A stretch of 64,000 nucleotides of DNA from an uncultured Williamsia sp. (GTDB lineage: Bacteria > Actinomycetota > Actinomycetes > Mycobacteriales > Mycobacteriaceae), in contig NZ_CANLWM010000003.1 of NCBI RefSeq assembly GCF_947494875.1, positions 372,001 to 436,000 on the forward strand, given 5' to 3'. A program made the position numbers and the translations under genes. The notes under the pieces were generated by a model, which was given only the letters and a program-made list of their open reading frames with translations, searched no databases and was not told the DNA's origin. The stretch's first letter is position 1, and the number at the start of each line of letters is the position of its first letter. Positions 20,340 through 35,814 of this stretch are shown piece after piece.

Positions 20340-21794
20340 GTGACCGGGCAGACCACGCGCGAACCGGGTATCCCGGACGATGATCTCGAGCAGCTACGGC
20401 GAATTCTCGACCGCGCCGCCGACCTCGGCCCCACCCATCCCGACTCCGTCGCCGTGCAGCACGCCGTCGGCGCGATGTTCAAACAGCTGAAGCGGACACG
20501 TAAACGAACCTCCCGACGCGCTCGCATCGACGCGGACCGCGCCGTCGTCGACGCGACCGCCACCGGCTCCCCCGATCGCGTCGACGACGAGACCGCCGGT
20601 CTCCCCCTCACCCCCTCGGCCGACGGCATCGCCGGACACCTGGTTCGCCCGCAGGGCTGCTACATCTGCAAGACGGAGTACACCCAGGTCGACGCCTTCC
20701 ACCATCAGCTCTGTCCGGACTGCGTCCGCGACAACGGCGCCCGTCGCGACCAACGGGTCGACCTCACCGGACGCCGGGCCCTGCTGACCGGTGGCCGCGC
20801 CAAGATCGGGATGCACGTCGCGCTGATGCTGCTCCGCGACGGCGCCGACCTCACCATCACCACCCGCTTCCCGCGTGACGCCGCCCGGCGGTTCGCCGCA
20901 CGCTCCGACGCCGACGACTGGCTGCACCGCCTGCACATCGTCGGCATCGACCTGCGCGACCCCGCCCAGGTCGTCGCACTCGCCGACGAGGTCGCCGCCG
21001 GTGGGCCGCTCGACATCCTCGTCAACAACGCGGCGCAGACCGTGCGGCGCTCCCCCGGCGCGTACCGATCCCTCGTCGACGCCGAGCAGGCCCCGCTGAC
21101 CGGCGCCGCTTCGCAGGTCCCCGTGCTCACGGTCGGTGAGGCGGCGCACCACCCCGCGGCACTGCTGTCGGCCACCGAGACCGCAGGCGCGATGTCCGAT
21201 GCGGGTGCGCGGGCGCTCGCCGCGGCAGCGATGACCGGGGGTTCGGCCTCCCCGGCACGACTGGCCGACGGGACCGCTGTCGACGCCGGCGGTCTGCTCC
21301 CCGACCTGGTGTCCACCAACAGCTGGGTCGCGACCGTGGACGGTGTCGACCCGCTGGAGCTGCTCGAGGTGCAGCTGTGCAACAGCGTCGCGCCGTTCAT
21401 CCTCCTGTCGCGGCTGACTCCCGCGCTCCGCGCCTCGACCGCGCGCCGTCGGTACGTGGTCAACGTGTCGGCGATGGAGGGTGTGTTCTCGCGCCGCTAC
21501 AAGGGCGCGGGCCACCCGCACACCAACATGGCCAAGGCCGCGCTGAACATGTTGACCCGTACCAGCGCCGGCGACCTGGCCCGCGACGGGATCCTGGTGA
21601 CCGCGGTCGACACCGGGTGGATCACCGACGAACGTCCGCACACAACGAAGACCCGGCTGGCCGACGAGGGCTTCCGCGCCCCGCTCGACCTCGTCGACGG
21701 CGCAGCACGCATCTACCACCCGATCGTGGACGGGGAGAACGGGATCGACCTGTCCGGGTGCTTCCTCAAGGACTTCCGGGTGCACCCGTGGTGA
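20340..21794 (+). CDS. Atypical short-chain dehydrogenase with N-terminal Cys4 knuckle
   Basis: 484 residues, about twice a normal SDR. Residues 1-100 form a polar helical arm with a basic patch (KRTRKRTSRR). A probable zinc knuckle follows: Cys107-x2-Cys110 and Cys125-x2-Cys128. The Rossmann domain begins near 140 with TGGRAKIG (150-157) and contains VNNAA (228-232). About 90 inserted residues (235-330) follow. Where the catalytic Tyr-x3-Lys should be, the sequence reads Thr395-x3-Lys399, while Ser377 is kept. The substrate-binding end (VDTGWITDERPH) is present. Classical dehydrogenase activity is doubtful; the function is unknown. Translationally coupled to the DinB-like gene. Confidence 0.85.
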   Translation: MTGQTTREPGIPDDDLEQLRRILDRAADLGPTHPDSVAVQHAVGAMFKQLKRTRKRTSRRARIDADRAVVDATATGSPDRVDDETAGLPLTPSADGIAGHLVRPQGCYICKTEYTQVDAFHHQLCPDCVRDNGARRDQRVDLTGRRALLTGGRAKIGMHVALMLLRDGADLTITTRFPRDAARRFAARSDADDWLHRLHIVGIDLRDPAQVVALADEVAAGGPLDILVNNAAQTVRRSPGAYRSLVDAEQAPLTGAASQVPVLTVGEAAHHPAALLSATETAGAMSDAGARALAAAAMTGGSASPARLADGTAVDAGGLLPDLVSTNSWVATVDGVDPLELLEVQLCNSVAPFILLSRLTPALRASTARRRYVVNVSAMEGVFSRRYKGAGHPHTNMAKAALNMLTRTSAGDLARDGILVTAVDTGWITDERPHTTKTRLADEGFRAPLDLVDGAARIYHPIVDGENGIDLSGCFLKDFRVHPW

Positions 21795-22270
21795 CACCGC
21801 TGCACGACGCCGCAGTCACGCTGCTGCAGGAGAACCTCACGGCCATCGCCGATCTCGTCGTCGGACTCGGCGACGACGACGCCGCGCGACGACCGGACCT
21901 CCCGGGGGCGAACGCGCCCTACGGCATCGCCAATCACTGCGTGGGTCTGGTCGAGTTCTGGCTCGGCAGCGTCGTCGGCGGCGAACGCATCCCCCGCGAC
22001 CGCGACGGTGAGTTCACCGCGACCGGCACCGTCGCCGATGTCGCGGCCCGGCTGTCCGACATCGCCGACCGGGTCCCGGGGTGGGTGGACATCGCCCTCG
22101 GCGAGGGGCCCCGCGATCGGACCGCGGTCGGGTCGACCCGCACGACGGCGGTACGGGAGGCGTCACCGGAATGGATGCTGCTGCACGTCGTGCGGGAGCT
22201 GTCCCAGCACCTCGGACAGCTCGAGATCACCCGCGACCTGCTGACCGCGTCCGCCGACGGCGCTGCGTAG
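21791..22270 (+). CDS. DinB/DUF664-like four-helix protein
   Basis: 159 residues. The overlap GTGA with the preceding stop sets the start. The helical sequence with His in IANHCVGLVEFWLG near residue 43 and the C-terminal LLHVVRELSQHLGQLEITRD segment match the DinB-like/mycothiol-dependent metalloenzyme superfamily, where three His bind a metal: here His43, His127 and His136 are candidates. Members use thiol cofactors (mycothiol, bacillithiol) in isomerase, S-transferase or detoxification reactions. Specific reaction unknown; the pairing with an unusual SDR is notable. Confidence 0.85.
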   Translation: MTPLHDAAVTLLQENLTAIADLVVGLGDDDAARRPDLPGANAPYGIANHCVGLVEFWLGSVVGGERIPRDRDGEFTATGTVADVAARLSDIADRVPGWVDIALGEGPRDRTAVGSTRTTAVREASPEWMLLHVVRELSQHLGQLEITRDLLTASADGAA

Positions 22271-22280: not shown

Positions 22281-23342
22281 GTGCCCACGTCCGTCCCGCT
22301 GATCCTCGACTGCGACACCGGGATCGACGACTCCCTGGCGATCCTCTACCTGCTGTCCCATCCGTCCGCCGAGCTGCTCGCCGTCGTGTCGACGGCCGGC
22401 AACGTCCCCGCGGACGTCGTGTGTGCCAACAACCTCGCGTGGCTCTCGCTGTGCGGCCGCGACGACATCCCCGTCGCTCTCGGCGCCACCGGTCCGCTGG
22501 TGGCGCCGCTGCGCACCACCGAGGACACCCACGGCCCGCTCGGCGTCGGCTACGCGGATCTGCCCACCGCCGCTCGTCCGGCGTCGACGACATCCGGGGT
22601 GGACTGGTGGATCGACCTCACCACCCGCCGTCCCGGCGAGGTCGTCGGACTCGTCACCGGTCCGCTGACCACGCTGGCGCAGGCGATCGCCGCCGATCCC
22701 GGCCTGCCGGCCCGCCTCCGGCGCCTGGTGATCATGGGTGGGGCGTTCCACCACCCCGGGAACACCACGCCGACGTCGGAGTGGAACGTCGCCGTCGATC
22801 CGGAGGCCGCCAAGGCCGTGTTCGCGGCGTTCGGCCGGGACGGGGCTCCCGAGCCGATCGTGTGTCCGCTGGACCTCACCGAGTCCATCGCCTTCACCCC
22901 TGACCACCTGGGCCGCCTGGCGGCCGCGGCCGAGAGCGAACCCGTGGAGCAGCCCGGCCCCGACGACGAGTACGGCACCCGGTCGGTCGCGTCGAACACG
23001 ATTGTCCGTCACGTCACCGACGCCGTCCGTTTCTATTTCGAGTTCCACGCCGACCACGACGAGGGATACATCTGCCACATGCACGACCCGTTCGCCGCCG
23101 CGGTCGCCGTCGACCCCGGCATCGTGACCACGCGGCCGGCCGTCGTCGACGTCGAGGTCGACGGTGCCCTCACCCGCGGCACCACGGTCGCCGACACCCG
23201 CGGCATGTGGGGTCGCCCGGTGAACGCGCGTGTCGCGACGACGACGGACGCGGACGCCGCGCTCGACGACATCGTCGACCGCGTCGCCGACCTCGCGCGG
23301 CGGACACCGGACGGCGATCAGGGCAACGGGTTGCGCTCGTAG
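22281..23342 (+). CDS. Nucleoside hydrolase (IunH family)
   Basis: 353 residues. Cleaves the N-glycosidic bond of ribonucleosides for base salvage, using a tightly bound calcium. The calcium-binding N-terminal signature DCDTGIDD is at residues 9-16 (D-x-D-x3-D-D). VTGPLTTLAQA, the MGGAFHHPGNTT segment with SEWNVAVDPEAA, and a late HDPFAAAVAVDP with the catalytic-loop Asp complete the fold. The base preference is not visible. GTG 22275 is an alternative start two codons earlier. The last 25 bp overlap the convergent glycosyltransferase gene. Confidence 0.92.
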   Translation: MPTSVPLILDCDTGIDDSLAILYLLSHPSAELLAVVSTAGNVPADVVCANNLAWLSLCGRDDIPVALGATGPLVAPLRTTEDTHGPLGVGYADLPTAARPASTTSGVDWWIDLTTRRPGEVVGLVTGPLTTLAQAIAADPGLPARLRRLVIMGGAFHHPGNTTPTSEWNVAVDPEAAKAVFAAFGRDGAPEPIVCPLDLTESIAFTPDHLGRLAAAAESEPVEQPGPDDEYGTRSVASNTIVRHVTDAVRFYFEFHADHDEGYICHMHDPFAAAVAVDPGIVTTRPAVVDVEVDGALTRGTTVADTRGMWGRPVNARVATTTDADAALDDIVDRVADLARRTPDGDQGNGLRS

Positions 23343-24409
23343 AACTCCAGGTGCGCCTGCGCGGCCGCGTCCCATGTCAGCGATTCGGCGAGACGCCGCC
23401 CTGAGGCCGCGTCGTGCGCGGTATCGAGTGTTGTCGACATCGCGGCGGCCAACGCGTCGACGTCGGCGGCGTAGGACACGGTGTCGCCGAATACCTCTCG
23501 CAGCACGGGTAGGTCACGGGTGACGACGGGCCGCCCCGCGGCGAGCGCCTCCATCGCCGCGAGCCCGAACCCCTCCTTCACCGAAGGGAACGCGAACACG
23601 TCGCACGCCGCCACCAGGGACGGCAGGTCGGCCTCGGCCACCGGGCCCAACACCGTGGGGTGGGCGTCGAGCTCGTCGGCGCGTCGGTCGTGGGCGGCGC
23701 GATAGTCGCGGTAGTCGAACAGGGTCTCCCCGCCGGCGACGACGAGGTCGACGTCGGGGTGCCGCCGACGCATCCGCGCCCACGCCTCGAGCAGGTCGAT
23801 GCTGCCCTTGCGGGGTTCGATGCCGCCGACGGCGAGGACGAAGCGGCCCAGTCGATGCCGCCACGCCTGCCGTGCGGTGACCGCGGTCGGGTCGTCGCCG
23901 GCGGCGGTGGAGAAGCGGAGGGCGTCGACACCGTTGGGGATCACGGTCGGGGTGATGCCCCAGCCCGCCGTCACCTCGGCGGCGACCGCCGCCGACACAC
24001 AGATGTGCGCATAGGGGTCGACGATCGCCTTCTCGTGGCAGCGCACCAGAACCGGCGTGGTGAAGGTGTCGAGATGGTGGACGGTCCGGATGCAGGTGCC
24101 GACCGCGTTGGCGCTGATGCAGTCCTGGGCGTGGACGATGTCGAACCCCGCGTGGTCGACGCCGTCGGCGAGCGCCGCGATCGACCGCACGATGCGGTCG
24201 GCCACGGACTCGCCGTCGCGCGCGGCGAACGGGATCAGGCGGACCTCCACCGACGGGTCGACGGGCCGGAAGAACCCGGGGTCGCCGTCGCGGGCCAATG
24301 AGTGCACCGTGACCCGTGCCCCGGCCCGCGCCAGCGCCTCCGCGAGGTTGAGGGTGTGCACCACCCCGCCACGCGGTCGCGTCGAGTAGGTGACGAGAGC
24401 CACCCTCAC
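23318..24409 (-). CDS. Glycosyltransferase, MSMEG_0565 family (Nit1-type cluster)
   Basis: 363 residues, GT-B fold of family GT4. The N-terminal domain has RPRGGVVHTLNLAEAL; the C-terminal domain has GGIEPRKGSIDLLEAW, then PSVKEGFGLAAMEALA, the E-x7-E nucleotide-sugar site, and GRPVVTRDLPVLRE. This is the glycosyltransferase that accompanies the nitrilase/radical SAM cluster in mycobacteria and other bacteria. Donor and acceptor are unknown. GTG 24409 overlaps the stop of the nitrilase-like gene (GTGA). Last gene of the second transcription unit; overlaps the convergent nucleoside hydrolase end by 25 bp. Confidence 0.92.
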   Translation of the reverse strand: MRVALVTYSTRPRGGVVHTLNLAEALARAGARVTVHSLARDGDPGFFRPVDPSVEVRLIPFAARDGESVADRIVRSIAALADGVDHAGFDIVHAQDCISANAVGTCIRTVHHLDTFTTPVLVRCHEKAIVDPYAHICVSAAVAAEVTAGWGITPTVIPNGVDALRFSTAAGDDPTAVTARQAWRHRLGRFVLAVGGIEPRKGSIDLLEAWARMRRRHPDVDLVVAGGETLFDYRDYRAAHDRRADELDAHPTVLGPVAEADLPSLVAACDVFAFPSVKEGFGLAAMEALAAGRPVVTRDLPVLREVFGDTVSYAADVDALAAAMSTTLDTAHDAASGRRLAESLTWDAAAQAHLEFYERNPLP

Positions 24410-25278
24410 GCGAGGACACCCCCTGTCGGGTCGGACGACTCGGCCGCGGCGATGCGGTAGGTGTCGATCCGACGTTCCGACAGGTGGTCGAGAACGCGAC
24501 GCGCGCGGGCGATCTCGGCGTCGACGTCCATGCTCACGGTGGCCATGCCCCCCTTCGAGCGCGTGGTCGCGAGCGTCTCCCCACCCGGGCCGACCACCTT
24601 GGCCTGGCCGAGGAACCGCAGCGATCCCATCACGCCGGTCTGGTTCGCCGACGCGACCACGACCTGGTTCTCGGCGGCCCGCGCGGCGTCGTAGAGGTCG
24701 AACAGGCGCGACTGTCGGTCGGCGGGCAGTCGGGACGCGCGGTCGGTGACGCTCGCGGGCCACGCCGACAGCATCGCGAGGACCTCCGCGCCGTCGAGCG
24801 CGAGGGTGCGCGCCGACTCGGGAAACGTCTTGTCGTAGTCGATGAGCATCCCGACCCGCCCGACCGGGGTGTCGAACGACGCGAACCGGTCCCCGGGTGC
24901 GAACGCGCGCGCCTCCCCCGCCGGCTGGTGCACCTTCCGGTGCACACCGAGGATCCCGTCCCCGGTGAGACACACGGCGGTGTTGTGCCGTCGGGCCGCG
25001 CCGGCGTCCTCGGTGAGACCGAGGCACACCGTCGTCGACCCGGCGGCCGCACGGACGGCCGCGAGTTCGGGTCCGTCGAGGTGGACCGGCGGCGGCAACT
25101 CGGTGAGGTCGGGGTCGCGCAGATCGCCGATGTACCCGCCCAGGCAGGCGTGTGGCAGCACCAGCAGGTCCACGCCGTCCCGGACCGCCGCCTCGACGAT
25201 CCCCACGACCTTCTCCAGAGACCGGTCGAGGTCGCGACCGAAGTGCGCCGCGACCGCACCGATCGTGATGGGGGCCAT
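24406..25278 (-). CDS. Nitrilase-fold protein with degenerate catalytic triad
   Basis: 290 residues, a carbon-nitrogen hydrolase fold over its full length and similar to the intact nitrilase of the same cluster (31510-32391). The family triad is Glu-Lys-Cys. Here the glutamate position reads His43 (LVLPHACLGGY), the lysine is kept as Lys115 (HRKVHQP), and the nucleophile position is Asp147 (LIDYDKTFPES). With two of three residues replaced it cannot work by the normal thioester mechanism. It may be a regulatory or scaffolding subunit, or catalyse another reaction. The fold outside the triad is well preserved, so it is not a decaying gene. It corresponds by position to MSMEG_0566. Confidence 0.88.
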   Translation of the reverse strand: MAPITIGAVAAHFGRDLDRSLEKVVGIVEAAVRDGVDLLVLPHACLGGYIGDLRDPDLTELPPPVHLDGPELAAVRAAAGSTTVCLGLTEDAGAARRHNTAVCLTGDGILGVHRKVHQPAGEARAFAPGDRFASFDTPVGRVGMLIDYDKTFPESARTLALDGAEVLAMLSAWPASVTDRASRLPADRQSRLFDLYDAARAAENQVVVASANQTGVMGSLRFLGQAKVVGPGGETLATTRSKGGMATVSMDVDAEIARARRVLDHLSERRIDTYRIAAAESSDPTGGVLA

Positions 25279-25320
25279 GCGGTCAGCCCCGGGAGTCCGC
25301 GACCCGCCGCGCCGGTCGGC

Positions 25321-26763
25321 TCATGCGGGGCCCAGCCCGGTCACCGACGGCCCGACCGCGAGGGTCTCGACACCGTCCGGCCAGCGCAACCGGACACCGG
25401 GCTCGGAGGTCAACCTGCCGACGGGTGCCGTCGCCACGCCTGCGGGGGCGTCGGGGGCCGCGGCGCCGGGCGCGTCCGCGGTGAGCATCCCGAACCCGGG
25501 GAAACAGGTGAGCCAGGACGCCATGTCGGCACCGGACGGGCGAGGTACCGCGGCGACGTCGATGCAGGCGCCGGTCCCACCGGCCTCGGCCAGCATCCCG
25601 GTGGTGCCCACGACGCCGGCCATCGAGACGTCCTTGGCCGCGCGTGGCGTCGATCGTGCGACGAGACCGTTCATCGCCCGCAGGTCGTCGGCGCTGCGGC
25701 GCGACGTCGAATCCCACTGTGCACCGGTGTATCCGGGGCGCCACCCGCCGGTCACGTCGACGGTGAGCCGCAGCGTGTCGCCGACGAGTCCGCCACCCGC
25801 CGGGATGGGACGGCTGGTACGACCCAGGGCGGTGACCGACAGCGACGCCGGGACGCCGACCTGGGTGTGACCGCCGAGCACGGGCACACCCCACGTCTGT
25901 GCGGCGGCCGCGAGGCCGCGGACGACGCGGGTGAGCTGGGACGTGGTGCGGGCACCGACCGCGTCGAGCAGACCGGTGGGCGTGGCGCCCATCGCGGCGA
26001 GGTCGTTGAGGTTCACCAGCACCGAGCACCACCCGGCCCACCACGGGTCGCGGTCGACCATCGAGGGCAGGATCGCGTCACAGGCGGCGATCGTGTCGCC
26101 GCCCGGGACCGGGACGCCGTCGTCGCCGACGAACCCGGCGGGACCGAGTCCGCCGGCGTGCGAACGGAGCGGCGCGAGGACGTCGGCGAGGAACGCCTTG
26201 GTGTCGTGGGCGATCCGGGCGATCCGGGGCATGGGTCGACGCATGTGCACGTGCGGGATGTCGCCGATCATGGTGTCGCCCTCGGCGGTCCACCCCAGGC
26301 GGGTGAACAGACCGCGCTGCGCGGCGTTGACACACGCGTCGAAGCGCAGCACGCCTCGACTCTCGGCATGCGCGACGGCCGCGCGGATCAGCGCCGACGC
26401 GACCGTGGCACCGCGGCGATCGGGTGCGACGACCAGTCGGCTGCCTGTCCACCACCCGATGTCGGTCTCGCCGACCGGCGCGAGCCGAACCCCGCCGATG
26501 ACGTCGCCGTCCGAGGCGATCGCGACGAGGACGACCGTGCGGTCGTCAAGGTCGATCTCGTCGACGTCGGTGTGTGGGAACACACCCTGTGCGTCGACGA
26601 AGGTCGCACGACGCAGCGCGCGATACCGCCGGTGATGCTCGGTGGTGTCCGCCGGTCGGACCAGGAACCCCGCGGGCACGGTGGCGGTCCGCGGCATGCC
26701 CTCGAGGATCGACATCGGACCGGACAGGTCGACTGCTGACGGGCCGCGCACGTCGACGATCAT
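25321..26763 (-). CDS. GNAT acetyltransferase / AIR-synthase-like fusion, MSMEG_0567 family
   Basis: 480 residues. About 35-185 is a GNAT domain with the acetyl-CoA loop APDRRGATVASALI and a following VLRFDACVNAAQRGLFTRLGW. About 190-480 resembles AIR synthase/PurM-type ATP-dependent enzymes, with GFVGDDGVPVPGGDT near 220 and a Gly-rich VVGTTGMLAEAGGTG segment near 400. In other Nit1-type clusters these are two adjacent proteins (sll0787 type) or one fusion, as here. The combination suggests ATP-dependent activation and acylation of a small molecule, an inference. The ATG overlaps the radical SAM stop (ATGA). Confidence 0.9.
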   Translation of the reverse strand: MIVDVRGPSAVDLSGPMSILEGMPRTATVPAGFLVRPADTTEHHRRYRALRRATFVDAQGVFPHTDVDEIDLDDRTVVLVAIASDGDVIGGVRLAPVGETDIGWWTGSRLVVAPDRRGATVASALIRAAVAHAESRGVLRFDACVNAAQRGLFTRLGWTAEGDTMIGDIPHVHMRRPMPRIARIAHDTKAFLADVLAPLRSHAGGLGPAGFVGDDGVPVPGGDTIAACDAILPSMVDRDPWWAGWCSVLVNLNDLAAMGATPTGLLDAVGARTTSQLTRVVRGLAAAAQTWGVPVLGGHTQVGVPASLSVTALGRTSRPIPAGGGLVGDTLRLTVDVTGGWRPGYTGAQWDSTSRRSADDLRAMNGLVARSTPRAAKDVSMAGVVGTTGMLAEAGGTGACIDVAAVPRPSGADMASWLTCFPGFGMLTADAPGAAAPDAPAGVATAPVGRLTSEPGVRLRWPDGVETLAVGPSVTGLGPA

Positions 26764-27815
26764 CCGCCCACCGCCGGGAGCACCGAACACGCGCCGCAGG
26801 CCGCGCAGCCGGCCCGTTGGTCCGACCCGCTCATCCCCGCGGTGCGCAGACGGTCGGCGACCCCGCGGGCCACCTTCTCGTACACGGCCGCGTCGGGCGG
26901 TCCCACCCCGTCGACCTCCACGGCGAGCGAGCCGGGATGCGGCCGGTACGGCACGACGAACGGGTACACACCCATCTCGACCAGATCGCTCGCCCCGGCG
27001 ACGAGTTCCTCCGGGTCCTCGCCGAGGCCGACGATGAGATACGTCGACACCTGATTGCGGCCGAACACCCGCACGGCCTCAGCCCAGGCCGCACGGTACT
27101 CCGAGAGCGGCACCTGTGCCTTGCCCGGCATCCACCGTCGCCGCACCTCGTCGTCGAGGGACTCGACGTGGATCCCGATCGCGTCGGCACCCGCCTCGTG
27201 CAGGTCGGTGATGACCGCGAGGTCGGCCGGTGGCTCGCACTGCACCTGCACCGGCAGTTCCGGCACGGCGGCCCGCACCGCGCGCACACATCGCGCGAGA
27301 TGGGTTGCGCCACGGTCGCGGCCGTTGGACGTGCCCGTGGTCATCACCATCTGTCGGACTCCGTCGAGGTCGACGGCGGCGCGGGCGACCTCGGCGAGGT
27401 CGGCCGGCTTCTTCACCGCGACCGTCGCGCCCGACCGCAACGACTCCTCGATGGTGCAGAAGCGGCAGCGCTGGTCGGGTGCATACCGCACGCAGGTCTG
27501 CACGACGGTCGTCGCCAGCACGTCGCGACCGTGCAGGCGCGCGAGCTTCTCGTAGGCGACGCCGTCTGCGGTGTGCAGATCGTAGAAGCGTGGACGTGCG
27601 ACGGCCTCCACCGACAGCCCGGTGTCCGCGCCGTCGAGGAGGATGCGGTCCCCGTCGAACACATAGGGGCTGAGCGGGTTCCGCGGGATGGCCGCGCCCA
27701 GACCGTCGACGACGACATGACCGTCGGCGCTGGGGCCGGCGCCCGCGCCCCTCGACACCGGCGGGTCACCGCGGATGCCGAGGAGTGCGAGATCGACGCG
27801 GGTGGAGACCGACAT
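26760..27815 (-). CDS. Radical SAM protein, MSMEG_0568 family
   Basis: 351 residues. The cluster-binding cysteines are spaced unusually, C-x8-C-x2-C (TCVRYAPDQRCRFCTIEES, near 108-120), instead of C-x3-C-x2-C. The rest looks like a BioB-type TIM barrel: VMTTGTSNGRDRG near 153, QCEPPADL, GIHVESLD and YLIVGLGEDPEE. A second cysteine set C-x2-C-x2-C (CAACGAC) near the C-terminus could hold an auxiliary Fe-S cluster. Its substrate is unknown. It is a defining member of the Nit1C cluster that is needed for growth on cyanide in Pseudomonas fluorescens. It sits 2 bp after the MSMEG_0572-family gene. Confidence 0.92.
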   Translation of the reverse strand: MSVSTRVDLALLGIRGDPPVSRGAGAGPSADGHVVVDGLGAAIPRNPLSPYVFDGDRILLDGADTGLSVEAVARPRFYDLHTADGVAYEKLARLHGRDVLATTVVQTCVRYAPDQRCRFCTIEESLRSGATVAVKKPADLAEVARAAVDLDGVRQMVMTTGTSNGRDRGATHLARCVRAVRAAVPELPVQVQCEPPADLAVITDLHEAGADAIGIHVESLDDEVRRRWMPGKAQVPLSEYRAAWAEAVRVFGRNQVSTYLIVGLGEDPEELVAGASDLVEMGVYPFVVPYRPHPGSLAVEVDGVGPPDAAVYEKVARGVADRLRTAGMSGSDQRAGCAACGACSVLPAVGG

Positions 27816-27817
27816 GA

Positions 27818-28342
27818 TCAGACCATGTAGGTGGAGTTGATGATGGCGCCCTTGCGGGCGTAGTGGATGAGCGCGTCCTGCACGTCGAGCGGATGCGCCG
27901 GGATCACGCCGGCGATGAGGTCCTCCTCGCGTCCGCCGTGCAGTGCGAGTCCGAAGCGACAGCAGTAGACGGTCCCGCCCTCGCCGATGAAGGTCTCGAG
28001 CGAGTTGTTGATGTTCTGCTCACCCGGGAAGCCGCTGTCGCCGGTGGTCGGGAACCCGCGGGTGGCCAGGCAGTTGATCGCACCGGGACCGTAGAAGTAG
28101 ATCGCGGACTCGAACCCCTTGCGCAGCGCGCGGGTGGCCTGCAGGACGGCGACGAAGCTCACCGACGACTCGTGCGCGATGCCGTGCACCAGGGTGAAGT
28201 AGGTCTCGCCGTCCTCGGCCTGGTAGTCGGGGAACAGCTTGGTGCCGCCGTAGATGTTCGAGCCCTTGGGCAGCGAGGGATGTGGGATCTCGGCGAGCGA
28301 GGTGGCGATGTTGGCGGCGATGGTGTCGTCGATCTCGGACAT
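27818..28342 (-). CDS. MSMEG_0572-family protein (first gene of second Nit unit)
   Basis: 174 residues, a small conserved protein found only with this cluster type. It shows LVHGIAHESSVSFVAVLQATRAL, YFYGPGAINCLATRGFP and TVYCCRFGLALHGG, a DsrE-like alternating alpha/beta pattern with cysteines at INCL and YCC. Function unknown; the pattern is reminiscent of sulfur- or adduct-carrier proteins, but this is weak. A strong ribosome site (GGAGGA) precedes the ATG. It leads the operon MSMEG_0572-family, radical SAM, GNAT-AIRS, nitrilase-like, glycosyltransferase, with a GlnR-like box and an inverted repeat upstream. Confidence 0.9.
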   Translation of the reverse strand: MSEIDDTIAANIATSLAEIPHPSLPKGSNIYGGTKLFPDYQAEDGETYFTLVHGIAHESSVSFVAVLQATRALRKGFESAIYFYGPGAINCLATRGFPTTGDSGFPGEQNINNSLETFIGEGGTVYCCRFGLALHGGREEDLIAGVIPAHPLDVQDALIHYARKGAIINSTYMV

Positions 28343-28372
28343 GGGATCCTCCGGGAGGAGAGTGTCGGACCG

Positions 28373-28392
28373 AGAGCCGGGGATCCGGCTCT
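28373..28392. promoter_or_regulatory. Perfect inverted repeat in leader of second Nit unit
   Basis: AGAGCCGG-GGAT-CCGGCTCT, 8-bp arms with a 4-nt loop, 30-50 nt upstream of the ATG at 28342. It could be a leader hairpin, an operator, or a terminator of the upstream ligase gene. The other unit has a similarly placed repeat of different sequence. Confidence 0.5.
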
Positions 28393-28418
28393 GGTGAGGA
28401 CCAGTCAACGGTGATGGC

Positions 28419-28434
28419 GTTGCGCGGTGGTTCG
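28419..28434 (-). promoter_or_regulatory. GlnR-like box of second Nit unit
   Basis: On the minus strand CGAAC-CACCGC-GCAAC. It matches 13 of 16 bases of the box upstream of the nitrilase gene and fits NNAAC-n6-GCAAC. It ends 76 nt before the start codon at 28342. Confidence 0.5.
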
Positions 28435-28510
28435 GTCCGGAACAACGCTGTGTTACAGGCGCATCCGAGTGTTGCGGCGGCGTTTCCGACGTCGCACACG
28501 CCGTGACGCG

Positions 28511-29923
28511 TCACGTCGGTCGACGTGCCTTGCCCGCCGAGTCACGGATGGGACTGCGCCGCAGCCGGATCCGACCGGGGCGACAGTGTCGCGCCACGAC
28601 CGCACGCGCGAACTCGGCGATCGCGGGCTCGTCGGCATGGTCTGCGAGGGTGATGTCCGCGCACAACCCCTGTCCCGCGGGAAGGCTCACGAGGCATTCG
28701 ACGACGTCGCCGTGGCGCAGCAGGTGCTCCTCGACGCGGGCGAGGTCGACGACGGTGTCGCCGCAGGAGCGTCTGTCGGTGGTGCGGCCGACGAGGTACA
28801 GCCAGCCGTCCGCATCGAGGCGCCCGAGATCGCCTGCGGTGTCCCACCCGTCGTCGGTTCTCGACGTCGCACCGCCGACGCGGGAGTACCGGGGCGGCCC
28901 GTCACGCCGCATCCACACCGTGCCGACCTCACCGGCCGGCAGGTCTCGGCCGTCGTCGTCGCGGACGGCGATCTGTGTCCCCCCGATCCCCCGTCCGACG
29001 CTGCCGGGCCGGGCCAGCCATTCGGCCCCCGTGATCATGGTGAGCCCGAACGACTCGCTGCTGGCGTACACCTCGACGACGCGCTCGGGGCCCAGCCAGT
29101 CCATGAGTGCCCGCTTGTCCGCCGGCGGGCACGGTGCGCCGAGATGCACAACGGACCGCAGGGTTGGGACCTCCCCGCGGCGATCGACGGGCAATCGGAC
29201 GAGGCGCCGGAGGAGCGACGGGGCCATCAGCGCCCAGGTGACCTCCTGACGCCGGATGATGTCGGGGAGGTCGGAGGCGTCGGCACGCGGCGCGAGCACC
29301 AGCCGGTGATCGGTCATGAGGCCGCGGAACGCGTAGGTGAACGCCGCGGGGTGCCACAGGTCGGCGGTCACGAGTTGCACGGCGCGGCCGGGCAGGAACG
29401 GCGCGACCGGACGGTCCGGGTCGAAGCGTGCCGGCACGGTCGACCGGATGAGCTTGCGGGGGCCGGTGCTGCCCGACGACGTCGACACCTTCCACGACGA
29501 CGCCCACTGGCCGCTCGGCACGCCCGCCGCGGCGCCCGCACCGTCCGAGTCGACGGACTCGATCGTCGGGACCGCCGATCCGGGTGCCGCGACACCGATC
29601 ACGGCTGCGGGCCCGGCGAGCCGGTCGAGGTGTGCACGCTCGTCCGGTGGCAGATCAGGCGACACCGGCAGCGGGACCGCTCCGGCCGTCCACACCGCGA
29701 CCAGCGCAGCCACCATCGCGGTCGACGTGGGCAGCGCGACGACGACGGTGTCGTCGCGCACCACACCGACGGCCCGCAACCGACCGGCCAGGGCGGTGGC
29801 AGCCGCGTCGAGCGCGGTGGTGGTGAGTTCCTCGCCCGTGCCGGCGTCCACGACGAGCACCTCGTCGGGCTCGCGCAGCGCCCGGCGAGCGACGAGGTCC
29901 CCGATGGGCACGTCCCCGGACAT
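28511..29923 (-). CDS. Adenylate-forming acyl-CoA/acid ligase within Nit cluster
   Basis: 470 residues of the ANL superfamily. Motifs: P-loop STSSGSTGPRKLIRS near 146, the aromatic/Glu motif YASSESFG near 290, TAGDLGRLDADGWLYLVGRTTD near 370 (A7/A8), and a C-terminal lysine in DSAGKARR (A10 position). It is shorter than most acyl-CoA synthetases and its acyl pocket does not resemble a long-chain FadD. It probably activates a small carboxylic acid as an AMP ester; the acid is unknown. It starts 2 bp after the flavoprotein stop, so it belongs to the nitrilase-led unit. A 14-bp palindrome (CGTGACGCGTCACG, 28502-28515) covers its stop codon. Confidence 0.88.
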   Translation of the reverse strand: MSGDVPIGDLVARRALREPDEVLVVDAGTGEELTTTALDAAATALAGRLRAVGVVRDDTVVVALPTSTAMVAALVAVWTAGAVPLPVSPDLPPDERAHLDRLAGPAAVIGVAAPGSAVPTIESVDSDGAGAAAGVPSGQWASSWKVSTSSGSTGPRKLIRSTVPARFDPDRPVAPFLPGRAVQLVTADLWHPAAFTYAFRGLMTDHRLVLAPRADASDLPDIIRRQEVTWALMAPSLLRRLVRLPVDRRGEVPTLRSVVHLGAPCPPADKRALMDWLGPERVVEVYASSESFGLTMITGAEWLARPGSVGRGIGGTQIAVRDDDGRDLPAGEVGTVWMRRDGPPRYSRVGGATSRTDDGWDTAGDLGRLDADGWLYLVGRTTDRRSCGDTVVDLARVEEHLLRHGDVVECLVSLPAGQGLCADITLADHADEPAIAEFARAVVARHCRPGRIRLRRSPIRDSAGKARRPT

Positions 29924-29925
29924 CG

Positions 29926-31206
29926 TCAGCCCGAGACGGCCAGCCGGAGTCCTCCGACGGAACCGACCCGCCGCGCCACCACGTCGGCGACATGCCGTGC
30001 GTCGGTGTCGACGCCGAGGAATCGACCCGATCCCCACGTGTGCATCCACGGCAGACCGATGAAGCTGAGACCGGGCACCTCGCTGATGCCGCGGGTCTGC
30101 ATCGGTCGGCCGGCGCCGTCGAACGCGCTGGCCTCGATCCAGGACCAGTCGGGGCGGTACCCGATGGCCCACACCACCGACGTGATCCCCGCCGACGCGA
30201 GGTCGACCTCGGTCGCTTCGTCGGCCGGCTCCCACACGGGCTCGTACCGCGACGGCGGCGGGGCGTCGAGGCCCTCCCGCTCGATGTACCGGTCGATGTC
30301 GGTGCAGATCGAGTTGTAGACCGCGTCGGCGCCGTCGAGGGCCGCGGTCAGCGTCGGTGCGAACCGCAGCCCGGCACCGTCGCAGTCGACGAGCTGGCCG
30401 TGCAACTGCATCCCCTCGCGCGCGAACGCGCGCAGGTCGATGTCGCGGCCCCCGTCACGCCCGGTGACGTAGTGGTTCGTCTTCTCGCGTGCGGGTGCGC
30501 CGCCCGGATACTGGGCGACCGGGGTGTCGTAGAGCCCCATGTCGGCGAGCCAGGTCATGACGTCGCGGCCGCGGTAGAACCGGGCGACGCGGGGTGCGCC
30601 GCCGACGGCGAGGTGGACGGTACGGCCGGCGAGATGCAGGTCCTCGGCGATCTGAGCGCCGGACTGACCGGTGCCGACCACCAGCACCGCTCCGGGCCGC
30701 AGCTGGTCGGGGTTCCGGTACTGCGCGGAGTGCAGCTGCTCGATGCCGGCGGGGATGCGCGCGGCGTACGGCGGGATGATCGGCACCTGGTAGCCGCCGG
30801 TCGCCACGACGACCTCGTCACAGGTGAGCACCTCCGCCGTCCCGCCACCGGTGGGTTCGACGGTGAGTTCCCACCCGCCGGCCGGTGCGTGCTTCAGGCG
30901 GGTGGCCCGGGTGTGGGTGCGCAGCGGCGGGTGGAAGTCCTCGAGCCACCGATCGAGCCAGGCGACGACCTCGTCGCGGGTCATGAAGCCGTCCGGGTCG
31001 TCCCCGTCGTAGGCGTGACCAGGCAGGCGGCAGTGCCAATTCGGGGTCACGAGGGTGAACGCGTCCCAGCGCGTGTCGGACCAGTGGTGCATCGGTGTGT
31101 GCGCCTCGAGGACCACGTGATCGACGCCGGACTCGGTGAGATACCAGCTGACGGCCAGACCCGCCTGTCCACCACCGACGACGGCGACGGAGACGTGGCC
31201 GCTCAC
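29926..31206 (-). CDS. FAD-dependent oxidoreductase, MSMEG_0569 family
   Basis: 426 residues of the flavin monooxygenase-like class. FAD motif VVGGGQAGLAVSW at residues 9-21, NADPH motif VVGTGQSGAQIAEDL near 176, and a C-terminal WAIGYRPDWSW and GLPWMHTWGSGRFLGV. The HTWGSGRF segment is typical of this cluster's flavoprotein (NitH in Pseudomonas). It probably performs an N- or C-oxidation on the pathway intermediate; the substrate is unknown. ATGA overlap with the MSMEG_0570-family gene. Confidence 0.92.
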   Translation of the reverse strand: MSGHVSVAVVGGGQAGLAVSWYLTESGVDHVVLEAHTPMHHWSDTRWDAFTLVTPNWHCRLPGHAYDGDDPDGFMTRDEVVAWLDRWLEDFHPPLRTHTRATRLKHAPAGGWELTVEPTGGGTAEVLTCDEVVVATGGYQVPIIPPYAARIPAGIEQLHSAQYRNPDQLRPGAVLVVGTGQSGAQIAEDLHLAGRTVHLAVGGAPRVARFYRGRDVMTWLADMGLYDTPVAQYPGGAPAREKTNHYVTGRDGGRDIDLRAFAREGMQLHGQLVDCDGAGLRFAPTLTAALDGADAVYNSICTDIDRYIEREGLDAPPPSRYEPVWEPADEATEVDLASAGITSVVWAIGYRPDWSWIEASAFDGAGRPMQTRGISEVPGLSFIGLPWMHTWGSGRFLGVDTDARHVADVVARRVGSVGGLRLAVSG

Positions 31207-31517
31207 CGGGTGCCCCTGGAGACGGTGGCCGGCAGCGGCGGGTGCATCGCCACGACGGTGACGGTCGCATCGGGTGCGAAGCCCTCGGCGCGCGAACGGA
31301 TGTGGTCGGCGGTGGCCATGGCGGAGGTGCAGGCGAACCCGTAGCGGGCCCGGACACGTTCGGCCGCCTCGCCGAGCGCGACCGTCGCGCGGTCGGTGAA
31401 GTCGGCGACCGTGTAGTCGGTGCCGGCCGTGAGGTGGTCGTGCATCACGAGGCTCGGTGAGTAGCAGTCGTCGCGAGTGCCGTCGGGCCAGCGGACGGTC
31501 ACGGTCATCTCAGGCAT
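31203..31517 (-). CDS. MSMEG_0570-family nitrogen starvation response protein
   Basis: 104 residues, a small cytoplasmic protein named after its nitrogen starvation association in mycobacteria. Features: N-terminal TVTVRWPDGTRDDCYSPSLV, a helical middle (FTDRATVALGEAAERVRARYG), and FACTSAMATADHI. Two cysteines (DDCYS, FACTS). No catalytic motif is recognised. It overlaps both neighbours (8 bp with the nitrilase, 4 bp with the flavoprotein), so all three are co-translated. Confidence 0.9.
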   Translation of the reverse strand: MPEMTVTVRWPDGTRDDCYSPSLVMHDHLTAGTDYTVADFTDRATVALGEAAERVRARYGFACTSAMATADHIRSRAEGFAPDATVTVVAMHPPLPATVSRGTR

Positions 31518-32391
31518 GGGCCAGGTTCCCCTGCGTGAGTGCGCCGTACACGTCGGGGCGACGGTCGCGCAGGTGGAACATCCCTCCGCGCATCGCGGCG
31601 AACGTGCCCTCGATGTCGACGTCCGCGACAGCCATGCCGGATTCGAGAAGTGTCGTGGCCAGGACGTTGCCGCCCGGGTCGACGACCTTGGCGTTGCCGA
31701 CGTACCGCAGCGACCCGAAGGTGCCGGACTGGTTCGAGGCGACCCAGAACACCTGGTTGTCCAGGGCGCGGGCGGAGTCGAACAGGTTGAACCGGTAGGT
31801 CCACCGGTCCTGCTGCAGGTCCTCGGCGGTGGCGGTGCGTGCGGCCGGCCACGCCGAGAGGCTGGCGATGATCTGGGCCCCGTCGAGCGCCATCACGCGG
31901 GCCGCCTCGGGGAACGCCTTGTCGTAACAGATCTGCAGGCCGACACGGCCGACGGGCGTGTCGAACACCCCGTACCCGTCGCCGGATGCGTAGGACATGT
32001 TCTCGCCCAACGGCTGGTGCACCTTGCGGTAGTTGCCGTAGATGCCACTGCCGTCGAGCACCGCGGCGGCGTTGAAGCGGGTGGGTTCGCCGTCGGGACC
32101 GTCGGCGAGTTCGCAGAAGCCGATGGCGACGAGCATGTCACCGGCGATGTCGCGGACCCGGGCGAGTTCCGGACCGTCCAGGGTGATCGCCGGGGGCAGC
32201 GAGACCGCCGAGTCCCGGCGCGTGTCGCCGTGGTTGCCCAGCGAGGAGAGGTAGCCGCCGATCGCGGCCTCCGGGAGGACGAGGAAGTCGACCCCGCGGG
32301 CCCGGGCCCGGCTGACGAGATCGGCGATGAGGGCGTAGTTCTGGTCGAGGTCGCGGGTGAAGTTCGCGGACACGGCGGCGATGGTCGTCAT
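31510..32391 (-). CDS. Nitrilase of the Nit1C type (sll0784/MSMEG family)
   Basis: 293 residues. The carbon-nitrogen hydrolase triad is complete: Glu41 (LVLPEAAIGGY), Lys123 (YRKVHQP) and the nucleophile Cys155 (ICYDKAFPEAA). In Pseudomonas fluorescens the homologous NitC nitrilase and its cluster are needed to use cyanide as nitrogen source; here hydrolysis of a nitrile or cyanide to acid and ammonia is inferred. The ATG has a ribosome site AGGAG; the longer frame upstream runs through the promoter. It heads the unit nitrilase, MSMEG_0570-family, flavoprotein, ligase. A GlnR-like box and a 22-bp inverted repeat lie upstream. Confidence 0.94.
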   Translation of the reverse strand: MTTIAAVSANFTRDLDQNYALIADLVSRARARGVDFLVLPEAAIGGYLSSLGNHGDTRRDSAVSLPPAITLDGPELARVRDIAGDMLVAIGFCELADGPDGEPTRFNAAAVLDGSGIYGNYRKVHQPLGENMSYASGDGYGVFDTPVGRVGLQICYDKAFPEAARVMALDGAQIIASLSAWPAARTATAEDLQQDRWTYRFNLFDSARALDNQVFWVASNQSGTFGSLRYVGNAKVVDPGGNVLATTLLESGMAVADVDIEGTFAAMRGGMFHLRDRRPDVYGALTQGNLAHA

Positions 32392-32418
32392 CGCACTCTC
32401 CTGCTGCTGGGGGACGGG

Positions 32419-32440
32419 AGCACACACGTCGATGTGTGCT
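32419..32440. promoter_or_regulatory. Perfect inverted repeat in nitrilase leader
   Basis: AGCACACA-CGTCGA-TGTGTGCT: 8-bp arms, 6-bp spacer, 27-49 nt before the nitrilase ATG. It suits either a dimeric repressor site or an mRNA hairpin. Confidence 0.55.
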
Positions 32441-32462
32441 GTACCCAGTAAGCGGTCCGCGT

Positions 32463-32478
32463 GTTGCGCAGTGGTTAC
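32463..32478 (-). promoter_or_regulatory. GlnR-like box of nitrilase unit
   Basis: On the minus strand GTAAC-CACTGC-GCAAC, an exact match to the GTNAC-n6-GNAAC pattern of actinobacterial GlnR. It ends 71 nt before the nitrilase ATG, a normal distance for activation of a downstream promoter. Binding is inferred. Confidence 0.6.
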
Positions 32479-32544: not shown

Positions 32545-33534
32545 TCAGCGCGCGTCGAACGCCTCGACGATCTGCTGTGCGCCCAGCGCGGGGGTCAGAC
32601 CACCCGAGCGGACGGCCTCCTCGGCGCGCCGACGGGCCTCCCGCACACCGGGATCGGTGTCGAGGCGGTCGGTGAGGATGTCGGTCACCATCGACCACAT
32701 CCACCGGACCTGTTGGCGACGCCGACGCTCGGCGAACTCGCCCGCGTCGGCGAGCACCTGCTTGTGCTGGAGCACCGTGTCCCAGAACTCGGTGACACCG
32801 ATGTTCTCGAGCGCGCTCATCGTGAGCACCGGCGGATGCCACAGCGCGTCGTGGGGGTAGAGCAGGTGCAGTGCGCCGCGGAGTTCGCGCGCGGCGGAGC
32901 GGGCGTCGCGTTCGTGCTTGCCGTCGGCCTTGTTCACCACCACGATGTCGGCGAGCTCCAGCACACCCTTCTTGATCCCCTGCAGCGAGTCGCCGGTGCG
33001 CGCGAGGGTGAGGAAGCAGAAGCTGTCGACCATGTTCGCGACGGTCACCTCGGACTGCCCCACGCCGACCGTCTCGACGATGACCACGTCGTAGCCGGCT
33101 GCCTCGAGGACCACCATCGTCTCGCGCGTCGCCTTCGCGACGCCGCCGAGCGTGCCCGAGGTGGGCGACGGCCGGATGTAGGCGTCGGGGTGCACCGACA
33201 GCTGCCCCATCCGGGTCTTGTCACCGAGGATCGATCCACCGGTCTTCGTCGACGACGGGTCGACGGCGAGCACCGCGACGCGGTGACCCTGCTCGAGCAG
33301 GTGCATCCCGAGCGCCTCGATGGTCGTCGACTTGCCCACCCCGGGAACGCCGGTGATGCCCACGCGGTAGGAGTTCCCGGCGTGCGGGGTCAGCTCCAGC
33401 AGCATCTCCTGGGCTGCGGACCGGTGGTCGGGGCGCGTGGACTCCACGAGTGTGATCGCGCGCGCGAGTCGGGCACGGTCACCGTCCCGGACGGCAGCGG
33501 CCAGCTCACCGGGGTCGATCGAGGGTGCGGGCAT
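32545..33534 (-). CDS. meaB: Methylmalonyl-CoA mutase-associated GTPase
   Basis: 329 residues of the MeaB/ArgK G3E GTPase family, which protects and reloads the B12 cofactor of methylmalonyl-CoA mutase. G motifs: P-loop GVPGVGKST near 61, the switch ETVGVGQSE near 153, and NKAD near 201; the SRGGSxxGD-like SILGDKTRM metallochaperone loop is near 100. C-terminal dimerisation helices follow. It starts 12 bp past mutB in the same operon. It ends 153 bp from the nitrilase start, in a region that also holds that gene's control sites. Confidence 0.95.
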   Translation of the reverse strand: MPAPSIDPGELAAAVRDGDRARLARAITLVESTRPDHRSAAQEMLLELTPHAGNSYRVGITGVPGVGKSTTIEALGMHLLEQGHRVAVLAVDPSSTKTGGSILGDKTRMGQLSVHPDAYIRPSPTSGTLGGVAKATRETMVVLEAAGYDVVIVETVGVGQSEVTVANMVDSFCFLTLARTGDSLQGIKKGVLELADIVVVNKADGKHERDARSAARELRGALHLLYPHDALWHPPVLTMSALENIGVTEFWDTVLQHKQVLADAGEFAERRRRQQVRWMWSMVTDILTDRLDTDPGVREARRRAEEAVRSGGLTPALGAQQIVEAFDAR

Positions 33535-33546
33535 CGGTGTCGGCGA

Positions 33547-35810
<2,264 letters not shown>

Positions 35811-35814
<4 letters not shown>

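Follow-up and report, generated by a model that had tools for sequence, protein, structure and literature searches.

A nitrogen-starvation-type gene cluster with a conserved pseudo-nitrilase in an uncultured Williamsia, and its relationship to the gpr and Nit1C clusters

The 64 000 nt stretch of DNA analysed here (the window; positions 372,001–436,000 of contig NZ_CANLWM010000003.1, from an uncultured Williamsia sp. whose genome assembly comprises 4.77 Mb in 17 contigs) carries a real and conserved gene cluster of the nitrogen-starvation type that is already known in outline. It represents the gpr type of actinobacteria, a sister of Nit1C, in the version found in Williamsia. We give about even chances to the reading that it encodes a small-molecule pathway which would serve peroxide tolerance and the NADP(H) pool and not the use of cyanide for growth. 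New are its clear separation from Nit1C, the arrangement in two GlnR-associated units with an added ligase, and a strictly conserved dead nitrilase; outside the window's genome, the linkage of an amidohydrolase to the MSMEG_0572-family gene (0572) is also new.

Gene content and arrangement of the cluster

Nine genes, all on the minus strand, occupy positions 23318–32391, and profile matches bore out the functions that a first-pass annotation of this DNA had read for them. That annotation had extended the cluster to 32478; its start at 23318 was correct, but nitA begins with the ATG at 32391, and 32478 is the edge of a GlnR box. Six genes scored above the cut-offs of their own NCBIfam families (0570, 0569, 0572, 0568, 0567 and 0565), the remaining three encoding two PF00795 proteins (nitA and nitB) and an AMP-forming ligase. 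The name nitB is used here for the pseudo-nitrilase and differs from Pseudomonas NitB, which is the 0572 homologue. The order is nitA, 0570, flavoprotein and AMP-ligase, then 0572, radical SAM, GNAT-AIRS, nitB and glycosyltransferase, as follows.

32462..32478, minus strand: GlnR-consensus box (GTAACCACTGCGCAACA) upstream of nitA; match to the published consensus
31510..32391, minus strand: nitA, carbon–nitrogen hydrolase with intact Glu-Lys-Glu-Cys, counterpart of MSMEG_0571 by synteny; PF00795, 5.6e-43
31203..31517, minus strand: MSMEG_0570-family small protein; TIGR04042, 122.8 bits (cut-off 79.85)
29926..31206, minus strand: MSMEG_0569-family flavin-dependent oxidoreductase (flavoprotein); TIGR04046, 635.3 bits (cut-off 498.35)
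28511..29923, minus strand: AMP-forming ligase (ANL superfamily); PF00501, 3.8e-45
28470..28486, minus strand: GlnR-consensus box (GAAACGCCGCCGCAACA) upstream of 0572; match to the published consensus
27818..28342, minus strand: MSMEG_0572/Sll0783-family protein; TIGR04044, 254.3 bits (cut-off 109.85)
26760..27815, minus strand: MSMEG_0568-family radical SAM protein; TIGR04043, 502 bits (cut-off 303.7)
25321..26697, minus strand: MSMEG_0567, GNAT fused to an AIRS-type ATP-binding domain; TIGR04045, 84.5 bits, and TIGR04050, 480.1 bits, both above cut-off
24406..25278, minus strand: nitB, conserved pseudo-nitrilase, counterpart of MSMEG_0566 by synteny; PF00795, 8.9e-32
23318..24409, minus strand: MSMEG_0565-family glycosyltransferase (GT4-like); TIGR04047, 462.1 bits (cut-off 259.85)

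TIGR04050 and TIGR04045 represent the two halves of the single GNAT-AIRS fusion, which starts at ATG 26697 or farther upstream; the AMP-ligase starts at ATG 29923 or TTG 29929, and 0572 at ATG 28342. Intergenic gaps did not exceed about 60 bp, except for the 168 bp preceding 0572. The earlier reading of two units is correct because the gaps are small save for this one, and each unit has a GlnR-consensus box of its own.

The two carbon–nitrogen hydrolases and the separation from Nit1C

Nit1C has been defined as a subfamily-1 nitrilase with six partners (Podar 2005; PMC1199592); this and the other publications are cited from the portions of their text that were available. The first-pass annotation had described the locus as a complete Nit1C/MSMEG_0565–0572-type cluster. 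The MSMEG part of this description held, with the AMP-ligase as one extra gene, but a complete Nit1C was rejected because neither nitrilase-like protein belongs to the Nit6803/NitC family and the second lacks the catalytic Cys and a catalytic Glu. With the model for that family (TIGR04048), whose cut-off is 502.6 bits, NitA scored 37.4 and NitB 22.2. None of 394 Actinomycetes genomes exceeded this cut-off, nor did any protein of the window's genome; the best two genomes (G161, 484 bits; G510, 460 bits) fall outside the set of 60 in which 0572 was found. One of 14 control genomes was above the cut-off, presumably that of Synechococcus elongatus. Two plasmid clusters, one from Pantoea and one from Rhizobium, carry annotated Nit6803-family nitrilases. 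NitA shared 27 % identity with the Nit6803 protein of Pantoea, the other core proteins being 34–53 % identical to those of the Pantoea cluster. In the phylogenetic tree, NitA and NitB formed one clade (support 92/85) separate from the Nit6803 clade (100/100); deep placement is unsure because several outgroup branches were very long and 12 of the 48 forks were open.

These results bear on the possibility that the cluster, like Nit1C of Pseudomonas, serves to assimilate cyanide or nitriles, NitA having replaced NitC on a cyanohydrin. Such a role would fit the core held in common with Nit1C, at the level of identity to the Pantoea cluster given above, as well as the nitrogen-starvation control indicated by the GlnR boxes; two Pseudomonas strains need NitC to assimilate cyanide (PMC11049912), and cluster homologues are described, by citation of Jones 2018, as essential for it in nine bacterial species (PMC10094980). 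We nevertheless regard it as improbable, given the 394 genomes devoid of a Nit6803-family nitrilase above cut-off, the distance of NitA from the Pantoea protein and its position in a different clade, and the redox and biofilm defects of the gpr paper, in the available text of which cyanide is not mentioned (PMC6039565). The transfer of a cyanide phenotype to this locus by the first-pass annotation was likewise unsupported, that phenotype being tied to clusters with NitC (PMC11049912), which is absent here. Its suggestion of a nitrile or a cyanide-binding molecule as the product found neither support nor contradiction.

The Glu-Lys-Glu-Cys motif of NitA was present in all 110 distinct sequences, rows covering less than 60 % of the window protein having been excluded from this and the following motif count beforehand. 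The leading sub-cut-off NCBIfam match was N-carbamoylputrescine amidase (102 bits), followed by an archaeal nitrilase (88 bits). The nearest solved relatives were a protein filed as nitrilase/beta-ureidopropionase and then N-carbamoyl amidohydrolases, with plant NIT4 among the last of 28 solved matches. We lean towards an amidase identity for NitA on this sequence evidence; it is a leaning and not a proof, because the N-carbamoylputrescine amidase match is trailed by the archaeal nitrilase match. It has been proposed that the stop codon of MSMEG_0571 is read through as selenocysteine (PMC6039565). Where 0570 follows nitA in relatives it lies in a different frame (77 of 78 cases), which in part contradicts the proposal; the nitA stop codon is TGA in 108 of 109 relatives, so that the stop codon itself is compatible with read-through and no argument against it.

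In NitB the catalytic Cys was replaced by Asp in 99 of 99 distinct sequences. The first Glu was also replaced in all of them, giving the motifs DKED (Asp, 88 sequences), GKED (Gly, six), HKED (His, four, the window's among them) and QKED (Gln, one), in which the Lys and the second Glu are retained. NitB was monophyletic (100/94). The ratio of non-synonymous to synonymous substitution rates (dN/dS) for nitB was 0.083 against Williamsia serinedens; two Williamsia at a greater distance gave 0.194 and 0.202. Against W. serinedens the nine genes spanned 0.019–0.253 (0572, 0.019; nitA, 0.06; AMP-ligase, 0.253), and the AMP-ligase gave 0.49 and 0.524 against the two more distant Williamsia. Since the Cys and the first Glu have been lost, yet the gene is under purifying selection, NitB is a maintained protein for which the usual nitrilase chemistry is unusable; a decaying pseudogene was rejected on the three nitB ratios and on the conservation across the 99 sequences. 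The second nitrilase-like protein had been recognized in the first-pass annotation, which missed both its catalytic loss and the work on the M. smegmatis gpr cluster (PMC6039565). In that account MSMEG_0566 is treated as a putative amidase (PMC6039565), and searches of the mostly open-access literature on nitrilase pseudoenzymes and by locus tag found no description of a dead NitB. Locus L054 (genome G222) also has a nitB-like gene that bears the dead-site signature; this genome gave no 0572 match, and no other cluster gene was present in 20 kb.

Nitrogen control and distribution in relatives

The GlnR consensus of M. smegmatis, Gn2AC-n6-GnAACA (PMC3662644), was matched perfectly by a putative site in each of the two upstream gaps. 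The strict motif occurred four times in the window against 0.91 expected, two of the four being in the two cluster gaps, and 64 times in the whole genome against 27 for the pattern read backwards. Among the four Williamsia with the two-unit arrangement (the window and loci L084, L085 and L109), the nitA box was found in all four and the 0572 box in the window, L084 and L085, with none within 180 bp in L109. On a 9-position score, 51 of 111 relatives reached at least 8 in the region preceding 0572, compared with 65 of 1500 control stretches; the window's nitA region scored 8. A separate count of the strict motif within 300 bp gave 14/110 for 0572, 3/9 for nitA, 0/7 for the flavoprotein gene and 0/4 for 0570, with 19/2400 for controls. 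For M. smegmatis, GlnR binding upstream of msmeg_0572 has been published on the basis of a gel shift (PMC4222082), as has a more than 500-fold, GlnR-dependent induction of the gpr operon (PMC6039565). In nitrogen-starved cells GlnR most likely activates the cluster, its two units being co-regulated. The predicted boxes in both gaps would provide the GlnR-controlled promoter of the gpr type, and they support the link to nitrogen limitation that the first reading had drawn.

The related loci examined numbered 120, of which 40 came from one genome set and 80 from named species, the latter being the best 80 of at least 423 confirmed; a few genomes were shared between the two and some loci were partial. 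The closest named locus among the matches listed was that of Williamsia serinedens (L084), with a 99 % identical 0572 and the nine genes in the same order. Only Williamsia, namely the window and loci L084, L085 and L109, showed the arrangement of nitA–0570–flavoprotein–AMP-ligase plus 0572–radical SAM–GNAT-AIRS–nitB–glycosyltransferase. Loci of Mycolicibacterium, Gordonia and Nocardia read 0572–nitA–0570–flavoprotein–radical SAM–GNAT-AIRS–nitB–glycosyltransferase, an order parallel to the locus numbers from MSMEG_0572 down to MSMEG_0565; by synteny NitA would correspond to MSMEG_0571 and NitB to MSMEG_0566. An ANL ligase stood directly behind the flavoprotein gene in Williamsia and in some Gordonia.

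Of the 60 Actinomycetes genomes that have 0572, 54 also have the radical SAM protein, 48 have NitA or a close relative, 33 the flavoprotein above its cut-off and 32 NitB. A linkage of NitB with the flavoprotein (31 genomes with both, one with NitB only, two with the flavoprotein only and 26 with neither; Fisher 1.4e-13) was not upheld, as the tree of 39 rows held only two to three changes and an independent-pairs test was non-significant.

Several loci departed from these arrangements. In Williamsia soli and Williamsia muralis the set was divided between two loci (L087 with L089, L095 with L105 and L090 with L112), both of which contain a 0572 gene, one reading 0572–nitA–flavoprotein and the other 0572–radical SAM–GNAT-AIRS–0570–nitB–glycosyltransferase; L087 has an additional nitA-type gene. 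Three loci of Frankia-like genomes (L173, L174 and L175), which share the genus label of the named Frankia loci, had 0572 without a radical SAM or nitrilase gene within 18 kb, and five genomes of that genus with 0572 had no cluster radical SAM at all. An eight-gene gpr-type cluster of Rhodococcus qingshengii (L166) is carried by a linear plasmid of 565 kb and has IS256 transposases on either flank. Of 515 plasmid records with a 0572 homologue, 374 were from Klebsiella.

Recurrent frames adjoining 0572 in relatives proved to be one real amidohydrolase gene (PF04909) seen in four alternative frames: all five same-strand frames tested matched PF04909, compared with none of three opposite-strand frames. 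The gene was a same-strand neighbour of 0572 in 30 of the 40 loci of one set (within L049–L083) and in five of the 80 named-species loci (L142, L144, L145, L153 and L161, all Frankia). Neither the window nor the Mycobacteriaceae-type loci L044–L048 have it, and one such protein used as a query, with no positive control, retrieved nothing from the genome to which the window belongs. NCBIfam gave no family name for any of three same-strand frames. Outside the Mycobacteriaceae-type loci it makes a tenth cluster gene, encoding another metabolic enzyme linked to the core, in keeping with a pathway.

The genes surrounding the window's cluster were also recorded. Directly upstream on the same strand lie meaB and two methylmalonyl-CoA mutase genes, mutA and mutB (32545–37754), separated from nitA by a 153 bp gap that contains the GlnR box. 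A mycothiol-S-transferase-family (PF04978) protein is encoded just past the cluster (21791–22270), and after it comes a nucleoside hydrolase gene that is convergent with the glycosyltransferase gene.

Scavenging of amide nitrogen is a second possible role, in which NitA would free ammonia and the AMP-ligase would make a CoA thioester of the acid left over, whose carbon passes to central metabolism, perhaps near the methylmalonyl-CoA mutase genes. The intact NitA motif, the ligase directly behind the flavoprotein gene in Williamsia and some Gordonia, the position of mutA, mutB and meaB, the amidohydrolase beside 0572 in many relatives and an AMP-binding protein in the same slot of a Pantoea Nit1C plasmid all point this way. 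It would leave the radical SAM, AIRS, GNAT and glycosyltransferase functions unneeded, and no ligase was found in 106 of the 120 loci, some of them partial; we judge this role unlikely.

Proposed role and comparison with known systems

The gene content supports the earlier suggestion of small-molecule chemistry, with acid activation, a radical SAM protein, an ATP-dependent AIRS domain, a GNAT domain, a flavoprotein and a glycosyltransferase. The radical SAM protein has a CX8CX2C motif and a C-terminal CX2CX2C motif, all six Cys being at least 98 % conserved in 114 rows, and no solved relative was found at E ≤ 0.01. Among 119 rows, Cys128 of 0572 was conserved in at least 98 %; the profile match of this protein to a DsrE/F-like chain was weak (E 0.86) and ranked behind unrelated chains. 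The AIRS domain keeps a GDD motif, and its nearest solved relatives were thiamine-monophosphate kinases (ThiL, 1.1e-9) and then HypE (4.1e-5). The flavoprotein matched NAD(P)H-dependent monooxygenases. The AlphaFold2 model of 0570 was confident, with a predicted local distance difference test score (pLDDT) of 93.1, and had no Foldseek match in the PDB at E ≤ 0.001; the predicted fold is compact and may be a new small one. By eye, the AMP-ligase retains the usual ATP-binding and C-terminal lysine motifs. In the Pantoea plasmid Nit1C (L164) an AMP-binding protein follows right after the flavoprotein, in the slot of the Williamsia ligase; close kinship of the two ligases was not supported, there being no BLAST match at 1e-3.

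We infer the production of a metabolite from this enzyme set, together with the order of steps, the substrate, the product and the partner of NitB. GlnR would switch on the two units under nitrogen starvation, and the AMP-ligase and the ATP-dependent AIRS domain may then activate an acid or amide, from which the radical SAM, GNAT and glycosyltransferase proteins would build and decorate a small molecule. The flavoprotein would spend or recycle NAD(P)H, and NitA, a different carbon–nitrogen hydrolase from NitC, would hydrolyse an amide-type C–N bond, while NitB would be a partner with no catalysis of its own or a subunit for ligand binding. The outcome would be support of the NADP(H) pool and of peroxide tolerance in starved cells.

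The physiological side of this proposal comes from published mutants of relatives. Deletion of gpr lowered peroxide resistance and NADPH/NADP and weakened biofilms, with planktonic growth unaffected (PMC6039565), and in a Synechocystis mutant of sll0783, the 0572 homologue, NADPH/NADP failed to rise under nitrogen starvation (PMC3901256). In nitrogen-starved cells the ratio thus lay below that of the wild type in both organisms. The core is common to the gpr and Synechocystis clusters and the nitrilase is not, and the redox phenotype is therefore attributed to the core; setting the core apart from NitC suggests that this phenotype belongs to the former and not to the nitrilase. The cluster family extends across several phyla and has two phenotypes, cyanide use and NADPH balance, and no described product was found in the literature searched.

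The gpr authors proposed that the encoded reductases directly regenerate NADPH, which would make the cluster a redox enzyme system with no dedicated metabolite. The NADPH/NADP drop on deletion, the failure of preliminary single-gene complementation attempts (PMC6039565) and the similarity of the flavoprotein to NAD(P)H-dependent monooxygenases are in line with this, but the sole clear reductase-like protein is monooxygenase-like and would consume NADPH, and the glycosyltransferase, radical SAM and GNAT proteins are left unexplained. We consider it very unlikely.

A number of observations weigh against the small-molecule pathway. AMP-ligase homologues were found in only 14 of the 120 loci (5/40 and 9/80, some partial), so that this enzyme cannot be central. 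Only 15 of 111 relatives had the strict GlnR motif in the region preceding 0572, compared with 40 of 3330 control stretches, and the 9-position score of the window's own 0572 region was only 7. The pLDDT of the predicted 0572 structure was only 39.6. The best solved match and the second NCBIfam match of NitA are themselves filed as nitrilases, its amide preference being a prediction. Amino-acid changes in the Synechocystis mutant were like those of the wild type, and its authors favour nitrile use (PMC3901256); the redox phenotypes could be indirect. Finally, 0570 exceeded its cut-off in only 17 of the 60 genomes, all 17 inside the flavoprotein set; this nesting and the module counts suggest a core with optional additions, few independent events lying behind the nesting.

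On balance, a redox or biosynthetic role is favoured over cyanide growth. A bolder form of the pathway, which strikes us as rather doubtful, would have NitB arise once, from the NitA lineage within the cluster, as an obligate non-catalytic subunit or an Asp-for-Cys non-hydrolytic enzyme. With NitB, the cluster would make a glycosylated redox metabolite, so far undescribed, when nitrogen is lacking, gpr and Nit1C would share one product, and its loss would explain the NADPH phenotype in two phyla.

Among known systems, the gpr cluster MSMEG_0565–0572 of M. smegmatis is matched by the same eight families in the window, six named families by profile and nitA and nitB by clade and by synteny with Mycolicibacterium loci. 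A gpr-like order fitting the locus numbers was seen in Mycolicibacterium L120, L129 and L133. An upstream GlnR box is a further shared feature. Compared with gpr, Williamsia adds the AMP-ligase and has moved 0572, yielding two units with a GlnR box each. MSMEG_0566 has been published as a putative amidase, whereas its likely orthologues, identified by synteny, lack the catalytic Cys, and the published gpr gene list does not include the amidohydrolase found beside 0572 in relatives.

The Nit1C clusters used for comparison were those of Podar 2005, Pseudomonas nitBCDEFGH and Synechocystis sll0783–sll0787. In common with Nit1C, under the Pseudomonas names, are homologues of 0572 (NitB), the radical SAM protein (NitD), GNAT (NitE), AIRS (NitF), 0570 (NitG) and the flavoprotein (NitH), the corresponding models TIGR04044, TIGR04043, TIGR04045, TIGR04050, TIGR04042 and TIGR04046 all scoring above cut-off, with GNAT and AIRS fused. 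A glycosyltransferase also occurs in Nit1C of Burkholderia and Rubrivivax (PMC1199592). Unlike Nit1C, the Williamsia cluster does not contain the subfamily-1 nitrilase (NitC/Nit6803), and it has instead the fused GNAT-AIRS protein, two other carbon–nitrogen hydrolases and the AMP-ligase.

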